From: a virus
DNA length: 20,896 bases
Strand: one strand, 5' to 3'
IMG/VR virus record: IMGVR_UViG_3300000956_000137
Span: 1-20,896 of that record
Of this stretch, positions 9,055 through 16,552 are shown piece by piece. How positions within the stretch are numbered: the first letter of the stretch is position 1; the number at the start of each line of letters is the position of its first letter. The notes beneath the pieces were generated by a model. The model was not told the DNA's origin, ran no database searches, and saw only the letters and a program-made list of their open reading frames with translations. A program made the position numbers and the translations under genes.

Positions 9055-9420
9055 TTAGCGATTGACTATCCAGTCGACGTCGAAGCTGGTGCGGTAAAGG
9101 AGCGTTTCTTCGTCACGCATATCGCCTCTGTAAGAGGTGATATAGCTATCGAGTTCGATGGCGTACCGGATCGCTTTTGCGACGGCGGTAGTCGATTGCG
9201 TCGTCAGACCGTATACATCGACTTGCAGGCTAGCCTGATCTGCGTCAGGGCGGCAATTGAGCATGTTGAACGGGGAGCCGCCGATCCACTGGTACACGAC
9301 GTAGGGCTTGGCGACGGTCTGAGGCGCCTGGCCGAAAGGGTAGATGCGCGGCGCTGTGCCTCCGAGCAACGCTTGCACCGTTGGGTCGGCCTTGCACACC
9401 GTGTAGAAAGGTACGTCCAT
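9055..9420 (-). CDS. Tail terminator / completion protein (DUF3168-like)
   Basis: A 121-aa protein with DUF3168-like features: an N-terminal FYTVCKADPTVQALLG, then PRIYPFGQAPQTVAKPYVVYQ, LQVDVYGLTTQSTTAVA and a closing TSFDVDWIVNR. This family includes lambda U-type and related proteins, which cap the growing tail tube and dock it to the head. It sits directly before the tail tube gene, as expected. The ATG shares one base with the stop of the upstream gp10-like gene (TGATG), indicating coupled translation. Confidence 0.8.
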   Translation of the reverse strand: MDVPFYTVCKADPTVQALLGGTAPRIYPFGQAPQTVAKPYVVYQWIGGSPFNMLNCRPDADQASLQVDVYGLTTQSTTAVAKAIRYAIELDSYITSYRGDMRDEETLLYRTSFDVDWIVNR

Positions 9421-9863
9421 CAGTTGAGCCCCAATTTAACGAGCTGAAATTTAGCGGAGGAAAGGAATTCTTGGAACACGGCTTGTTGGTTCTGCCCGAG
9501 CGCATTACGCATGAAAGGTTGCGCGCGGTTCTTCGAGGTGCCTAGTTCTACCCACCACCAGTAAAAAGTATTTCCGCCGCGCTGCCCGCGTTTGGTCTTG
9601 CGCACTCCAACAGAGATCTTGGTGCTGCCGGTTTCCTCGAAGTACTTTTTGTCTTCTACGAGAGCGATGTTTTTCGAGATGTCGGGAATGGTTCTCGGGT
9701 CATCGATTGCGCTGGCGCGCTGGATAGCGTCCTTAAGCACGAGGTCCATAGCGTCTTTGGCCGCCGGGATAACTACTTGGCGCTGAAGTTCCTGTGGCAG
9801 AGTCTTAAAGATCCTGCTCAGTTCGTCAGCGCCTTTTAGCTTATAGGTGATCCAGTCTGCCAT
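9420..9863 (-). CDS. HK97 gp10-like tail completion protein
   Basis: A 147-aa protein from the ATG at 9863 (MADWITYKLKGADEL). It shows the HK97 gp10 pattern: an N-terminal KGADELSRIFKTLP, a helix with AAKDAMDLVLKDAI, SVGVRKTKRGQ, and the highly typical FYWWWVELGTSKNRAQPFMRNAL. The family connects the head-tail interface with the tail terminator. The frame is open to a TTG at 9902, but the ATG has GAGGG about 8 nt upstream and matches the usual N-terminus, so I take the ATG. It follows a terminator and begins the tail transcription segment. Confidence 0.88.
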   Translation of the reverse strand: MADWITYKLKGADELSRIFKTLPQELQRQVVIPAAKDAMDLVLKDAIQRASAIDDPRTIPDISKNIALVEDKKYFEETGSTKISVGVRKTKRGQRGGNTFYWWWVELGTSKNRAQPFMRNALGQNQQAVFQEFLSSAKFQLVKLGLN

Positions 9864-9900
9864 GTTGTCGCCCTCGGTTTGGGCTGAGTTTATCACAGGC

Positions 9901-9929
9901 AAGAAAAAGCCGCCCTAGGGAGGCGGCTT
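9901..9929 (-). terminator. Rho-independent terminator after the methyltransferase gene
   Basis: On the minus strand, AAGCCGCC (9929-9922) and GGCGGCTT (9914-9907) form a perfect 8-bp stem with a 7-nt loop. The T-run TTTTTCTT follows (9908-9901). It separates the cargo block from the tail genes. A weak extended -10 (TGTGATAAA, about 9897-9889) just downstream could restart transcription, but there is no good -35. Confidence 0.8.
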
Positions 9930-10018
9930 AGTACAGCACCGAAAGATTTGGGCTTCTACGAGAGGCCTATCGGTTATCCACTAGATACAGTCACGGATTA
10001 AAGATTATCAGGATAACC
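9930..10018. repeat. Spacer with inverted repeat GGTTATCC / GGATAACC
   Basis: The 78-nt gap after the methyltransferase stop holds no gene. A perfect 8-bp inverted repeat lies at 9972-9979 and 10011-10018, with 31 nt between the arms; the second arm overlaps the last codons and stop of the methyltransferase gene. It could be an operator, a weak stem or chance. I see no convincing promoter in it. Confidence 0.4.
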
Positions 10019-10625
10019 TTTTAAACGCAAAGGACGTGATGCCTTCTCGGCCGAGTTCGGTTTCGGCATGATTGACTTCCATAACCTGGAAACCCTGATC
10101 TTCGCACCACCGGATCAAGCCCGGGATGCTGAAATACCAGAGGTGTTCCGCCGGCTTGAAATGCTTAGACTGCAAAGCCTCTTCTGCGCTTTCGAAGGTC
10201 GGCAACGAAACGAAGAACCAGTCGTCGACCTGGGCGAGAAGCTTCTCGGGCTCCGGGATGTGCTCCAAGCTATCCCAGCAGGTGACGTGCGAAACCCTTT
10301 CGGTGTAGGGGTCTTTGTAGGAGCCGGTTTGCTTTAGCCACTCCACCGCTTCGCTACTCACGTCGTAGCCATCGCCCCACGATTCTTTGACGTAGCGCCC
10401 GCCGCCGATACCGATGTCCACGCCTAGCGAAGCTTTCGTGTACTTCTCTACCAGTTCAAGTCGGGCTTTGGTCAACAGGCCTCCCATGGGCGTTTCGTCG
10501 AGCTTCTGGTAGTGGGCGAAGTACTCGCCGCTGTAAGTCATCGGCGGCGAGCTGTGCCATCCGTAGCCCTTCTCGCTACACCACAGGAAGGAATCGGTCA
10601 GCCCACTGGGCAAGCTTTGAGTCAT
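10008..10625 (-). CDS. Class I SAM-dependent methyltransferase
   Basis: A 205-aa protein from the ATG at 10625, which has AGAGG about 10 nt upstream. The frame runs further up to a TTG at 10694, but that lies deep inside the glycosyltransferase gene. Motif I is VDIGIGGGRY (residues 69-78), an acidic residue follows in GYDVS (Asp88), and CWDSLEHIPEP (116-126) is the post-II/III motif of methyltransferase type 11/12 enzymes. It ends with WYFSIPGLIRWCEDQGF, common in small phage or glycan-cluster methyltransferases. The substrate is not visible. Overlap with the GT9-like gene (about 50 nt) and the terminator behind it make these two a unit, so a sugar or glycoprotein acceptor is the simplest inference. 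It is not a recognisable DNA methyltransferase: no DPPY/NPPY or PC motif. Confidence 0.82.
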   Translation of the reverse strand: MTQSLPSGLTDSFLWCSEKGYGWHSSPPMTYSGEYFAHYQKLDETPMGGLLTKARLELVEKYTKASLGVDIGIGGGRYVKESWGDGYDVSSEAVEWLKQTGSYKDPYTERVSHVTCWDSLEHIPEPEKLLAQVDDWFFVSLPTFESAEEALQSKHFKPAEHLWYFSIPGLIRWCEDQGFQVMEVNHAETELGREGITSFAFKRLS

Positions 10626-11403
10626 AATCGGAAATCCTCTTATCGCAGCTATGCTGCTTAAGTTTGCACCGGCAGAAATTGTCCGGCACCGCAAAGGTAA
10701 TTGTACTACCGGACGGACAGATTAGCTCCGGCGCGTTGAAGCCGCCTTGGCCGCCGCAGATAATCCATGTAGGAACTTTAGCTGCGAGCGCTGCCGGCAC
10801 CAGCCAACCGGTACCGCCGATCACCGCCGAGGCATTGGCGACGAGCGACAGGAGTTGCTCGACCGGGAGTTCACCTTTGTGGTAGCGCACGTCGGCCGGG
10901 GGCAAAGGTTCGACAGCCCATTCGGCGTTGTCTACGAGGTCCGCTACGCTGATCACCTTATAGCCGCGGCGCATAGCTTCAGCAGCGGCCCAAGCAATGT
11001 ATTCAGGGTTCGGGTTACGGGTATCGGCTCGCCACTCGCTACGCACTGTAGCTGGCCGCACGACGACGTATTTACCCTGCTCGGGCGATGGGGGAAGCGG
11101 TGGCAGGTCGAACGCACCGGGCGCGACGCCAAAGCAAGCCGTCATGCCGGGGATAATCCCCTCGGCGCCGTAGCGGATCTGCCTGGTAGGTTGGCGCGTC
11201 GGCGGCATTACCCAATCGGCATGGCGCGCGATGTTCTTCGCCTGGGTGCGCAGCGTGGTTTGCGGACGGATGAAATGGACGCCGGGGATATCGGAATAGA
11301 TTTCCGGCCAGGGGGTGTCAAGGTAGACAGGTTTTGGTAGCGCCTTGATGAACGCTCGTTGATAAACGTTATCTCCGAGTCCTTTCATAGAATGAATAAT
11401 CAT
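10576..11403 (-). CDS. GT9-like (heptosyltransferase-type) glycosyltransferase
   Basis: A 275-aa protein that begins IIHSMKGLGDNVYQRAFIKAL, the N-terminal Gly-rich loop of GT-B family 9 enzymes and their relatives. The C-terminal half contains ASAVIGGTGWLVPAALAAKVPTWIICGG (residues 191-218), the nucleotide-sugar site pattern in which a conserved GDTG-like motif appears here as GGTG. The C-terminus has a small cysteine cluster (FCRCKLKQHSC). GT9 enzymes normally add heptose to lipopolysaccharide core. Phage copies are rare and could decorate virion proteins or alter host surface glycans. The ATG at 11403 has GAGG about 5 nt upstream, immediately behind a terminator. The altered GDTG motif leaves activity open. 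Confidence 0.68.
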   Translation of the reverse strand: MIIHSMKGLGDNVYQRAFIKALPKPVYLDTPWPEIYSDIPGVHFIRPQTTLRTQAKNIARHADWVMPPTRQPTRQIRYGAEGIIPGMTACFGVAPGAFDLPPLPPSPEQGKYVVVRPATVRSEWRADTRNPNPEYIAWAAAEAMRRGYKVISVADLVDNAEWAVEPLPPADVRYHKGELPVEQLLSLVANASAVIGGTGWLVPAALAAKVPTWIICGGQGGFNAPELICPSGSTITFAVPDNFCRCKLKQHSCDKRISDYDSKLAQWADRFLPVV

Positions 11404-11415
11404 AAAGCCTCGTTC

Positions 11416-11438
11416 AAAAAGAACCCGCCGAAGCGGGT
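11416..11438 (-). terminator. UUCG-loop Rho-independent terminator before the GT9-like gene
   Basis: On the minus strand, ACCCGC-TTCG-GCGGGT (11438-11423) is followed by TCTTTTT (11422-11416). It lies only 12 nt before the GT9-like start codon, leaving no space for a promoter between. It would therefore end transcripts from the head genes and the tRNA, or act as an attenuator letting a fraction through. Confidence 0.82.
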
Positions 11439-11461
11439 CAAGGAGGGCACGACGGGAATAG

Positions 11462-11489
11462 GCCTCGGAATTTTTAATGAGGCTCCGAG
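11462..11489 (-). repeat. Inverted repeats able to form alternative stems
   Basis: Minus-strand CTCGGA (11489-11484) pairs with TCCGAG (11469-11464). GCCTC (11483-11479) can pair instead with GAGGC (11466-11462). The two stems exclude each other. They lie between tRNA-Trp and the terminator in front of the GT9-like gene. This could be a tRNA 3' processing structure or part of an attenuator; neither is shown. Confidence 0.45.
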
Positions 11490-11512
11490 TCCTCTTTGCG
11501 GCGTTGGTTGAC

Positions 11513-11588
11513 TGGCGACGAGGCTAGGACTCGAACCTAGAACGCACGGCTTTGGAGGCCGGCATGTTGCCAATTACACTACCTGGTC
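11513..11588 (-). tRNA. tRNA-Trp (anticodon CCA)
   Basis: The 76 nt fold by standard numbering. The D stem is GTGT/ACAT with G18G19. The anticodon loop is CTCCAAA, with CCA at 34-36. The variable loop is GCGTT, and the T arm is CTAGG-TTCGAGT-CCTAG. G73 and an encoded CCA end are present. G73 fits bacterial tRNA-Trp. There are two mismatches: C4-C69 in the acceptor stem and C27-T43 at the outer anticodon-stem pair, so it may be less efficient or partly decayed. It sits between the DUF115-like gene and a terminator. Confidence 0.88.
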
Positions 11589-11736
11589 AAATTCAAGTGG
11601 GCGCATTTTTATCGAGTTGGCCCACAGTCTGCTCTCGTTGTCGCGGTGCGTCTCTCCGCACTGTCACGCCACTTCGACGCGTTAGCGACGGCTCCTGCGA
11701 TTTGCTGCAGCTTCCGCTTCAGCCGTGATTCGAACT
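11589..11736 (-). other. Non-coding spacer with stem-loops between DUF115-like gene and tRNA
   Basis: I see no gene here. On the minus strand there are several perfect stems. GTGCG/CGCAC with a GAGAGA loop lies at 11646-11661. GTGGGC/GCCCAC lies at 11597-11625, directly 5' of the tRNA. ACGGCT/AGCCGT encloses CTGC/GCAG just after the gene stop. A GTTCGAATC string near 11727 resembles a tRNA T-loop, but its flanks do not pair. The structures may serve tRNA 5' processing or be remnants of other tRNAs. Confidence 0.45.
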
Positions 11737-12297
11737 TTAGACACTCGCATCACAAGTGTCAACAACCTTTTGCAACTCTTTTTCCAACATGCCTAAACGG
11801 TACGCTGTCAGCGCGGTGTCACGAGAGCAGTTCACCACCTGATCGCGCTGCGCCAACCTGCAGTGCTGCTTGTTCCACTTCCTGCACAACGCCTCGTCAG
11901 GGTTCTTCGTGTCGCTATGGTCTCCGTGCCAGTGCGTACCGCCTTGCACCGTGCAGTCGTACCCAAGAAGCAGGACGCGTTCTGCGCCTAGCTGAAAGGC
12001 CAGTTCAATCGCCCTTAAGCCGCTGTTGTATTCACCGTAAGCGGTGTGCAGGTTCAGAGCGTGCTTTGCGGACGCCTGGCGGGTACACGTCCATCGCGTA
12101 GGACCATTCGGCACTTTGGAGACGTTCGCATCCCACCACGCAAGATCACCTGCGTAAAGGTGATCGCACCACGGGGCTAGCTGCCAGGAGTTGTTTACAG
12201 CGATTGTGGGAAGGCCGGCGGCGCGTACCAGTTCACAGTCGTGCGCGTTGAGGCTTGGGCCTGAGGCGATGCAGACGAAGGTTTTAGAGGGATGCAC
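11737..12297 (-). CDS. DUF115/MptE-like 'norphogenetic' phage protein
   Basis: About 186 aa from a GTG at 12297 (AGGA lies 11 nt upstream); the frame is open to a TTG at 12333 with a weaker site. The protein begins KTFVCIASGPSLN and continues with TIAVNNSWQLAPWCDHLYAGDLAWWD, NSGLRAIELAFQLGA, RVLLLGYD, HWHGDH and NCSRDTAL. This set is typical of a phage family often labelled norphogenetic protein, related to MptE-like/DUF115 Rossmann proteins near glycan genes. The G-SGPSL loop suggests nucleotide or nucleotide-sugar binding. The real substrate is unknown. Company with a glycosyltransferase and a methyltransferase supports a glycan role, but that is inference. Confidence 0.72.
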   Translation of the reverse strand: MHPSKTFVCIASGPSLNAHDCELVRAAGLPTIAVNNSWQLAPWCDHLYAGDLAWWDANVSKVPNGPTRWTCTRQASAKHALNLHTAYGEYNSGLRAIELAFQLGAERVLLLGYDCTVQGGTHWHGDHSDTKNPDEALCRKWNKQHCRLAQRDQVVNCSRDTALTAYRLGMLEKELQKVVDTCDASV

Positions 12298-12640
12298 GTG
12301 GCTGGTGTTCCTATTCTGGCAGCGCGCCCGCAAACGTTGTTCTTGCCTTTCGGCTGACCCTACCGCTTACGTATCGACTTACGTGTAGGACTTGTCCTGG
12401 AACTCAAATCCAGACTCCAGTGATGCGAAACGGTGGCCGCTGTCCGAAGAGACGCATCATTAAGCCATTCGCCGCACGTGCTTCTAGTTACGATTGGTAG
12501 CGGCATCTTAACCGGCTACCCAACGGGCACTTTCCGAAGCGTGGTCAAGCTTCCGCCCATCCTAGTCAGTAAGTCTCTATGGCCGCGGGTTCCCGCAACA
12601 GCAACAATTCCATGTTGGCTCAACAGCACTTGCCGCGAGT
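12298..12640 (-). other. Non-coding, densely structured leader region (candidate structured RNA)
   Basis: About 340 nt without a convincing gene on either strand. On the minus strand at least six stem-loops are visible. They are GCGG/CCGC (12585-12596), GAAGC/GCTTC (12536-12553) and TTGG(G)TAGC/GCTACCAA (12494-12524, one bulge). The others are TGATGCG/CGCATCA (12421-12459), CTGGA/TCCAG with a 7-nt loop (12397-12413) and GCC-GAAA-GGC (12345-12354). CTTACGT occurs twice, 12 bp apart (12366-12372, 12378-12384). None has a U-tract, so they are not terminators. No clear sigma70 promoter was found. It may be a structured leader, decayed tRNAs, or a regulatory RNA. Confidence 0.5.
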
Positions 12641-12979
12641 TTACCCTTCATTCACTCCAAGCGAAACAGGAGCCGACACGTAATCGCGTCCGCTTTCCTG
12701 ATCTGGCAGCCACGCGTGTACGTTGTATATGTCGCCGTTGTGCAAAATGCGTTGCTTGGCATTCAGGCCGGGGCGCTGGCGAATGACGATGCGCGCGATG
12801 ATCTCGGACTGAATAGCCGCCGCGGCCAAGAATTCCCGACCGCTGGCCGGAGCAATGCGCGCCGGGACGTTCTCAAAGACGGTTACCCAAGCTTCGGTAA
12901 AGCCGCCCGTGTCAGGATCTCGGATCTCGGTCCAATCTTGGATATCCACCCGATGGCGGTACTGGCCGGCGCGGCTCAT
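12641..12979 (-). CDS. Head closure / head-tail adaptor protein (SPP1 gp16-like)
   Basis: A 112-aa protein from the ATG at 12979, with GGGAGGA about 8 nt upstream; the frame extends to a GTG at 13003. It shows the head-tail adaptor pattern: SRAGQYRHRVDIQDWTEIRD, GGFTEAWVTVFENVPARI, ASGREFLAAAAIQSE, then RILHNGDIYNVHAWLPDQ. Proteins of this family form the ring that closes the capsid after packaging and receives the tail. The start overlaps the upstream stop (ATGA). In related phages the next gene is the gp10-like tail completion gene. Here that neighbour is 2.8 kb away, on the far side of the cargo block. Confidence 0.87.
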   Translation of the reverse strand: MSRAGQYRHRVDIQDWTEIRDPDTGGFTEAWVTVFENVPARIAPASGREFLAAAAIQSEIIARIVIRQRPGLNAKQRILHNGDIYNVHAWLPDQESGRDYVSAPVSLGVNEG

Positions 12980-13611
12980 GGACGCTCCTCCCAAATGAAC
13001 CACAGCGTTCCGGTGGCTGCGCCGCTGCCGAAGTTCTCATAACGCACGTAATAAGTGCCTGCCGCTACGCCGCGTTCGTCGCCGACGACATTGCCCACGG
13101 TGGATTGCTGCGCCGTGGCCGTAGCGGCGACTATCCGGTGAATGTCGAACACGAAACCGTCGGTGTGAGTGCCTCCTGCCGTAAAACCGATCTGAGGTAC
13201 GTACAGCGGTGTGGGGCGCTCCGTCATGTTGTTCTTGCCGATCACAGGGAGCGTCTCGGAAAAAGTTCCCCCTGGCGTACCCCCGGAGGTATTGGTGATC
13301 CTCAGACTGCCGGAGTCCAATTCAACGGCCTGCTCCGCGAGGATCGCGTTAATCGGCACTACGACCTTGATAACCAGGGTTTGCCCGGCGGCGATGTTGA
13401 ATTCTCGGAAGGTTCTGAACTCCCTTCCTGCGAAGAATCCGGTCTGCCCTACGTCCACGCGTAGGCGGCGATTGGGGCCGTCGCCGCCGTCGGTGTACAG
13501 ATCGAAGGGGGAATGCGCGATAACGCGCTCAGCATGAGTCCCGTCGCCCATGTCCGTTTCTTTGCGGTACGGGCCGCCGAACAGCTTCCGTATGTAGTCT
13601 CCTACTGGCAT
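12976..13611 (-). CDS. Putative virion structural protein between connector and head closure
   Basis: A 211-aa protein beginning VGDYIRKLFGGPYRKETD, with HAERVIAHSPFDLYTDGGDG, RLRVDVGQTGFFAGREFRTF, LVIKVVVPINAIL and a C-terminal WFIWEERP. It is rich in Thr, Gly and Val and probably folds as a beta-sandwich. I have seen closely similar proteins annotated only as hypothetical or structural in proteobacterial siphoviruses at this position. The ATG has GAGGG about 8 nt upstream and overlaps the gp6-like gene by 10 nt. A decoration or neck protein is possible; its exact role is not visible. Confidence 0.6.
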   Translation of the reverse strand: MPVGDYIRKLFGGPYRKETDMGDGTHAERVIAHSPFDLYTDGGDGPNRRLRVDVGQTGFFAGREFRTFREFNIAAGQTLVIKVVVPINAILAEQAVELDSGSLRITNTSGGTPGGTFSETLPVIGKNNMTERPTPLYVPQIGFTAGGTHTDGFVFDIHRIVAATATAQQSTVGNVVGDERGVAAGTYYVRYENFGSGAATGTLWFIWEERP

Positions 13612-16249: not shown

Positions 16250-16552
16250 TTACACCTGCACCGCAATAAAGGCTTCAACATCGGACTTCTTGATCCGACC
16301 GTCCTTGCCGGTGCCAATCACTTTAGAAAGATCCACGTTGTTCTCCGCCGCGAATGCAGCGATAGCTTCCGAAATCAAAGGCTCTTCTGGGGCAGAAAGC
16401 GGTGCAGCGGTGAGCATCCGGGTTTTATAGCCGGCTTCGACAGCCGCGTCAGCGTAAGTCCCGAGCCCCAGTTTGCGCAGAGTCTCGGCGTACCGGTGTG
16501 CCATCATGGTTTTTCTGCCGCCGCGACTGTAAACGAATTCTACTTTGCTCAT
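16250..16552 (-). CDS. Small head-module protein with E3-binding-like (PSBD) C-terminus
   Basis: A 100-aa protein at the head of the second head transcription unit. Residues 1-50 (KVEFVYSRGGRKTMMAHRYA, LRKLGLGTYADA) are unrecognised. Residues 59-96 (LISEAIAAFAAENNVDL, SKVIGTGKDGRIKKSDVEAF) match the peripheral subunit-binding domain of 2-oxo-acid dehydrogenase E2 proteins, including the V-x-G-T-G-x-D-G-R-I-x-x-x-D-V core. In bacteria this domain binds E3 or E1. In a phage it may be a reused small helical docking fold, or resemble Lsr2-type DNA-binding tails. Its function is unknown. The ATG has GAGGG 8 nt upstream and lies about 25 nt after a strong promoter -10. Confidence 0.75.
   Translation of the reverse strand: MSKVEFVYSRGGRKTMMAHRYAETLRKLGLGTYADAAVEAGYKTRMLTAAPLSAPEEPLISEAIAAFAAENNVDLSKVIGTGKDGRIKKSDVEAFIAVQV

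Follow-up and report, generated by a model that had tools for sequence, protein, structure and literature searches.

A candidate virion-protein glycosylation cassette and a putative nested RNA locus at the head closure-gp10 junction of a D3/PAJU2-like siphophage

Why should genes for three glycan-type enzymes and a tRNA lie between two head-tail connector genes of a siphophage? The question is raised by IMG/VR virus record IMGVR_UViG_3300000956_000137, a 20.9 kb stretch (positions 1 to 20,896, hereafter the window) that carries D3/PAJU2-like siphophage structural genes, nearly all on the minus strand, and that, searched whole by megablast, has no match among cultured phages. Between the head closure gene (Hc1) and the gene for an HK97 gp10-like protein are found genes for a PmgO-like putative transferase (GTA), a GT9-fold transferase (GT9-like) and an S-adenosylmethionine (SAM)-dependent methyltransferase (MT), with tRNA-Trp between the first two. 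An earlier note, made from the sequence alone, had listed these genes together with two terminators, and each was found on the minus strand where that note had placed it. The best explanation of the locus as a whole, to which we give a probability of roughly 0.5, is that D3/PAJU2-type siphophages have long used the Hc1-gp10 junction as a cargo slot, which here holds a late virion-protein glycosylation cassette with a promoter-driven RNA locus nested in it.

The order Hc1-GTA-GT9-MT-gp10 was present in every close-clade contig that spans the junction (∼40, collected by portal or GT9 similarity), and PAJU2 has the identical order. In D3, GT9-MT occupies the place between Hc1 and gp10, and GTA lies apart from the pair, ahead of Ad1. 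The complete trio precedes Ad1 in contigs L028 and L032 (L numbers denote the contigs and records compared here), in phage Psp6 and in a Burkholderiaceae contig. Overall, a connector or head region location was found in PAJU2, Psp6, and Pseudomonas and Burkholderiaceae prophages.

Distant relatives, with portals 54-63% identical, present a different picture. In 14 records, a set that includes near-identical ones, Hc1 and gp10 are separated by at most 12 nt, and the statement that these genes are normally neighbours therefore holds for distant relatives. A search of 20 whole records, which may be incomplete genomes, covered 12 of the 14 (L090 and L102 being outside it), and in these 12 neither GTA nor GT9 was present. 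Eight other distant relatives carry GTA plus 1.3-4.3 kb of other sequence at this position, and two (L080 and L101) are of the GTA-GT9 type. Where it could be matched to families, the alternative cargo is mostly glycan-type, while several of its proteins match nothing: L076 contains two PmgQ-like transferases (phrog_1962) with an HNH endonuclease between them; L079, L081 and L099 contain methyltransferases, the last also with a weak Glyco_transf_4 match; and L101 has a polysaccharide pyruvyl transferase beside GT9. These comparisons support a cargo slot at the junction: some distant relatives leave it empty, and others fill it with different glycan-type sets. Extra sequence in the major tail protein was considered as an alternative to the cassette and set aside; it is present in only some of the empty-slot phages. 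In L083, L092 and L096, ∼180-250 extra nt, perhaps an added domain, interrupt the match to the major tail protein of D3.

The trio also occurs outside this slot. GTA, GT9 and MT lie side by side between the Q antiterminator and holin genes of enterobacterial prophages, behind the major head protein of a Mesorhizobium prophage, and in Klebsiella jumbo phage Eowyn. Cultured phages with GT9 or MT nearly always have both, and the trio is taken here as one functional unit.

An indication of what this unit might do comes from the GT9-like protein, whose confident AlphaFold2 (AF2) model has a GT-B fold. In a Foldseek search against the PDB, the best 19 matches were all TibC chains (4rb4/4rap, E from 2.8e-8), followed by WaaF (1.1e-6) and WaaC (2e-5), lipopolysaccharide (LPS) heptosyltransferases of GT9 that belong to the same fold class. 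TibC transfers heptose from ADP-heptose onto autotransporter proteins, and has a four-Cys iron finger and the catalytic base Asp110 (PMC4358343). Residues D11, C244, C246, H251 and C253 are invariant in 29 GT9-like sequences. Asp11, near the start of the N-lobe, matches Asp110 of TibC in kind and position, and the remaining four residues form a CxC-x4-HxC cluster. The likeness to TibC comprises the GT-B fold and the position of the catalytic Asp; the Cys-rich C-terminal motif, which resembles a metal site, may be a counterpart of the iron finger, with different spacing and one different ligand. The protein is shorter than the dodecameric TibC (275 versus ∼406 residues) and starts directly at the N-lobe, without the N-terminal β-barrel. 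As a description of fold, the earlier term GT9-like glycosyltransferase stands; as a family assignment it does not, with none of the 29 members matching Pfam GT9 (PF01075). Nor did any of them match the WaaC or WaaF families in Pfam or NCBIfam, and a sequence-only search of solved structures with GT9 and GTA gave no significant match.

GTA, read from the GTG at 12297 (its frame is open from a TTG at 12333), aligns with positions 1-174 of the 178 in phrog_4603 and belongs to the PmgO family. The label DUF115-like was not upheld, since PF01973 (DUF115/MptE-like) scored 22.6 bits against a gathering threshold of 34.6. The fold matches of GTA are weak, and include thiamin pyrophosphokinases and the sialyltransferase CstII. 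MT is confirmed as a SAM methyltransferase, with a PF13489 score above the cut-off of 27 bits and invariant GIGGG and WDSLEH motifs, and its gene overlaps that of the GT9-like protein by 50 nt. The general view of the three proteins as glycan-type enzymes is likewise supported. MT alleles form groups (∼65% and 83-97% identical to that of the window) that do not track GT9 identity, as if swapped by recombination.

In the mechanism proposed here, the three-enzyme glycan cassette would probably be expressed late with the structural genes. Most likely, the GT9-like enzyme acts in the cytoplasm, where it would add a sugar (plausibly heptose, with host ADP-heptose as donor) to a predicted acceptor among the phage virion proteins; the glycan would be extended or capped by GTA and MT. 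No gene for sugar-nucleotide synthesis is present in the block, which would fit a donor supplied by the host, for example ADP-heptose. We consider late virion-protein glycosylation the most likely role, and favor it over LPS modification, because of the position among connector genes, the TibC-like fold of the model and the glycan-type alternatives in the slot.

Nested within the cassette is a second conserved feature. At the 3′ end of GTA (GAAAAAGAGTTGCAAAAGGTTGTTGACACTTGTGATG), a promoter scan identified TTGACA (11762-11757), a 17 nt spacer and TAAAGT (11739-11734), the last overlapping the GTA stop codon, so that TTGACA-17-TA(A/G)AGT terminates on that codon. Across 39 alleles, codon agreement for identical residues is 0.94 in the 11-codon GTA tail as compared to 0.61 in the rest of the gene and 0.84 in its best other 11-codon window. 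The extended motif TTGACA-N17-TARAGTTYG occurs exactly once per locus in 73 matching loci, redundancy included. A single copy of a 22-nt core was detected in each of 41 viral contigs, and the core sits at the GTA 3′ end in 36/36 newly fetched loci. The promoter-like element is therefore conserved at the DNA level.

The interval that follows it had been described as a non-coding spacer. It is indeed non-coding, but looks like a separate promoter-driven RNA locus, which had been missed. Downstream of the element, GTA-GT9 gaps measure 237-1816 nt, and that of the window has no long sense-strand open reading frame (ORF). The gaps are mosaic: 211 of 741 gap pairs have a module of at least 60 nt in common, and 24 pairs share a module at 97% identity or more while both flanking genes are less than 88% identical. 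Modules at least 97% identical beside flanking genes only 71-87% identical indicate exchange at this site. Module A of the window is replaced by other modules in other relatives. The tRNA-Trp proposed earlier proved sound, with a cloverleaf, a CCA anticodon (ARAGORN, Rfam) and compensatory variation at acceptor pair 2, which is A-U, G-C or U-A among relatives. Of 39 distinct gaps, 12 contain tRNAs according to ARAGORN, and seven of these are Trp. In module Z, a hairpin with a TTAAAAA loop (∼11462-11491) occurs as two alleles with a compensatory swap, and the stem of the terminator before GT9 (11439-11422) covaries between relatives, both on the basis of few independent changes; some gaps continue beyond the terminator. 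This terminator and the one that closes the cassette, both predicted previously, recur at matching places in relatives, whereas the total of terminator-like sites in the window alone is not above chance (5 found versus 5.6 expected). An Rfam scan of the modules found only tRNA above threshold, and a search of all viral contigs with two module cores found them only in this clade. One untranslated module (GCGGATAGGGGGCACCCGA..AGCTAGTCACTG..TTCCGCA) recurs in two gaps of the cassette, MT-gp10 (L006, L012, L046 and L069) and GTA-GT9 (L020 and L038). We tentatively propose a recombining array of small RNAs in the GTA-GT9 gap, an idea to which we give slightly less than even odds. A single-copy promoter in the last GTA codons would drive a short terminated transcript containing tRNA-Trp and untranslated modules, and this payload, tRNAs or modules foreign to Rfam, would be exchanged between relatives by recombination.

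Coordinates of the junction features within the window, with the evidence for each
Feature	Position	Strand	Evidence or remark
Hc1, head closure (Phage_HCP)	12641..13003	-	PF05521 3.8e-22; phrog_25; upstream edge of cargo slot
GTA, PmgO-like putative transferase	11737..12297	-	phrog_4603 2.4e-51; AF2 pLDDT 90
Sigma70-type promoter-like element, coding-embedded	11734..11771	-	promoter scan; codon conservation; 22-nt core in viral contigs
Untranslated module A of RNA locus	11590..11736	-	common to L011 (100%) and L033 (79%)
tRNA-Trp (CCA), 3′ CCA encoded	11513..11588	-	ARAGORN; Rfam RF00005 54.4 bits
3′ module Z	11404..11512	-	TCAACCAACGCC motif, hairpin, terminator, GT9 ribosome-binding region
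GT9-like GT-B transferase	10576..11403	-	phrog_6804 6.6e-125; AF2 pLDDT 91.5; Foldseek TibC
MT, SAM-dependent methyltransferase	10008..10625	-	PF13489 40.6 bits; phrog_6564 1.3e-89
Intrinsic terminator closing the cassette	9907..9929	-	hairpin AAGCCGCC..GGCGGCTTTTTC; same one after MT in many relatives
HK97 gp10-like, downstream slot edge	9420..9902	-	PF04883 at threshold; phrog_5 2.4e-18

The non-coding lengths in the window are ∼343 bp (Hc1-GTA), 333 bp (GTA-GT9) and 105 bp (MT-gp10). The first of these gaps (12283-12640) is non-coding or holds a small ORF, and small ORFs appear there in several relatives (MIYDVEKGDRG.., MSRSEAEIEKE..). Insertions of 670-820 nt occur at the gp10-tail terminator junction of L008, L023, L031 and L072, three of them near-equal in length (811-817). 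Beside the portal, a 100-residue protein (16250-16552) matches the E3-binding (peripheral subunit-binding) domain PF02817 (2.3e-10), which is odd for a phage structural operon.

How the cassette arrived, and what it modifies, can be read in other ways. The earlier note saw a recent, moron-type acquisition and held that an order common to all relatives would speak against it. While the abutment of Hc1 and gp10 in distant relatives would suit an acquisition of this kind, we consider it very improbable. The same order throughout the close clade, together with the presence of these genes among the head-tail connector genes of PAJU2 and D3, argues that this is not a recent moron: the presence/absence between close relatives expected of one is not seen, the block being in the whole close clade and empty only in distant relatives, where the order does differ. 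What is recent and variable is confined to the tRNA content and the RNA modules. A host surface glycan, either the LPS inner core or O-antigen, is a less likely target but a serious rival to a virion protein; it would be modified late in infection or during lysogeny so as to block superinfection or re-adsorption to debris. In favor of this, the fold matches to WaaF and WaaC are significant too, the site beside Q and holin in enterobacterial prophages is of the moron type, an O-antigen acetylase-like gene adjoins the trio in the Mesorhizobium prophage, and a pyruvyl transferase accompanies GTA-GT9 in L101. The best fold matches, however, are to a protein glycosyltransferase, and Pseudomonas-type phages keep the trio inside the head-tail connector genes. 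The known seroconversion genes of D3 (oac, iap and wzy-beta) are located elsewhere, which also counts against a surface role. A target of another kind (host protein, small molecule or nucleic acid), modified for instance in counter-defense, is improbable; the weak resemblance of GTA to thiamin pyrophosphokinase and the nonessential, accessory nature of the P1 homologue (PMC10695390) would agree with it, but what takes the place of GT9-MT in the slot is glycan-type (PmgQ-like transferases, pyruvyl transferase).

For the RNA locus, the conserved GTA 3′ end could instead be a boundary of recombination homology rather than a promoter, and the gap untranscribed filler except for the tRNA. The exchange of near-identical modules between diverged flanks and the fold z-scores near zero are both compatible with this reading, which we nevertheless regard as unlikely: the element has the textbook form TTGACA-17-TARAGT and an A-rich stretch upstream, it occurs exactly once in each matching locus, and tRNA genes and an intrinsic terminator lie downstream of it. 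The two roles could also coexist.

Several points weigh against late virion-protein glycosylation and a promoter-driven RNA locus. GT9-like members do not reach the 200-bit cut-off of the TibC family model (BAHT, TIGR04414), scoring ∼12-13 bits in the members shown, and 15 of 29 give only weak matches to it (best E 0.017). Similarity this far below threshold means that the enzyme is not a family member, though it may, judging from its model, work like TibC. Its C-terminal cluster has three Cys and one His within 10 residues, as compared to four Cys (C339, C342, C358 and C370) over ∼31 in TibC, and the margin of TibC over WaaF and WaaC in the fold search is modest. The fold matches of GTA have E values of 0.01 or more. 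The trio adjoins lysis genes, not virion genes, in enterobacterial prophages, and the acceptor protein is a prediction. As pmgO of P1 is nonessential by CRISPR interference (PMC10695390), the role of the cassette would be accessory if P1 is a guide. The element is a predicted promoter whose transcription is deduced from its sequence, and the folding energy of the gaps does not differ from that of shuffled or coding controls (mean z −0.14 for gaps, −0.18 for coding). The folding test has little power, because gaps bearing tRNAs also gave no signal; as it lends no support to structure, we prefer the name untranslated modules for everything but the tRNA until transcripts are observed.

In our judgement, the enzyme cassette adds a member to something already visible, unexplained, in D3 and PAJU2, and what is new is the slot comparison and the nested RNA locus, of which a limited search of the open literature found no description. 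Virion glycosylation of D3-type phages was likewise not found there. The phages compared here form an ordered set (empty slot, several different glycan cassettes, this cassette) for a direct test of whether 'hypothetical' connector-region genes, such as those of PAJU2 and D3, have a role in glycosylation. The clade also swaps short untranslated modules, of which the tRNAs alone match Rfam, at one site under one conserved promoter-like element; if correct, the small-RNA array would give phages a plug-in site for small RNAs within a structural operon.

Among known systems, the closest are the Detrevirus phages D3, with orf7, orf12 and orf13, and PAJU2, with gp10-gp12, whose head-tail connector regions encode the same three families, publicly annotated as alpha-2,3-sialyltransferase, hypothetical protein and methyltransferase. 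Unlike here, the PAJU2 cassette genes overlap, without an RNA locus or tRNA. PmgO of P1 is a 37% identical homologue of GTA from the pmgO-pmgP-ppp-pmgQ region, and PmgQ-like transferases can also accompany GTA in the slot (L076), but the P1 region has no GT9-like or MT partner. Glycosylated mycobacteriophage virions (Freeman et al. 2023, doi 10.1016/j.chom.2023.05.028, as cited in PMC10955285 and PMC10568470) provide a precedent for glycans on tailed-phage virions. The RNA locus finds its counterpart in phage tRNA clusters with extra stable RNAs. In T4, species 1 and 2 are non-tRNA stable RNAs in such a cluster, and tRNA and non-tRNA small RNAs are co-transcribed, as is proposed here. Unlike the T4 cluster, the locus described here has a coding-embedded promoter-like element within a structural-gene operon, and its modules are swapped among relatives.

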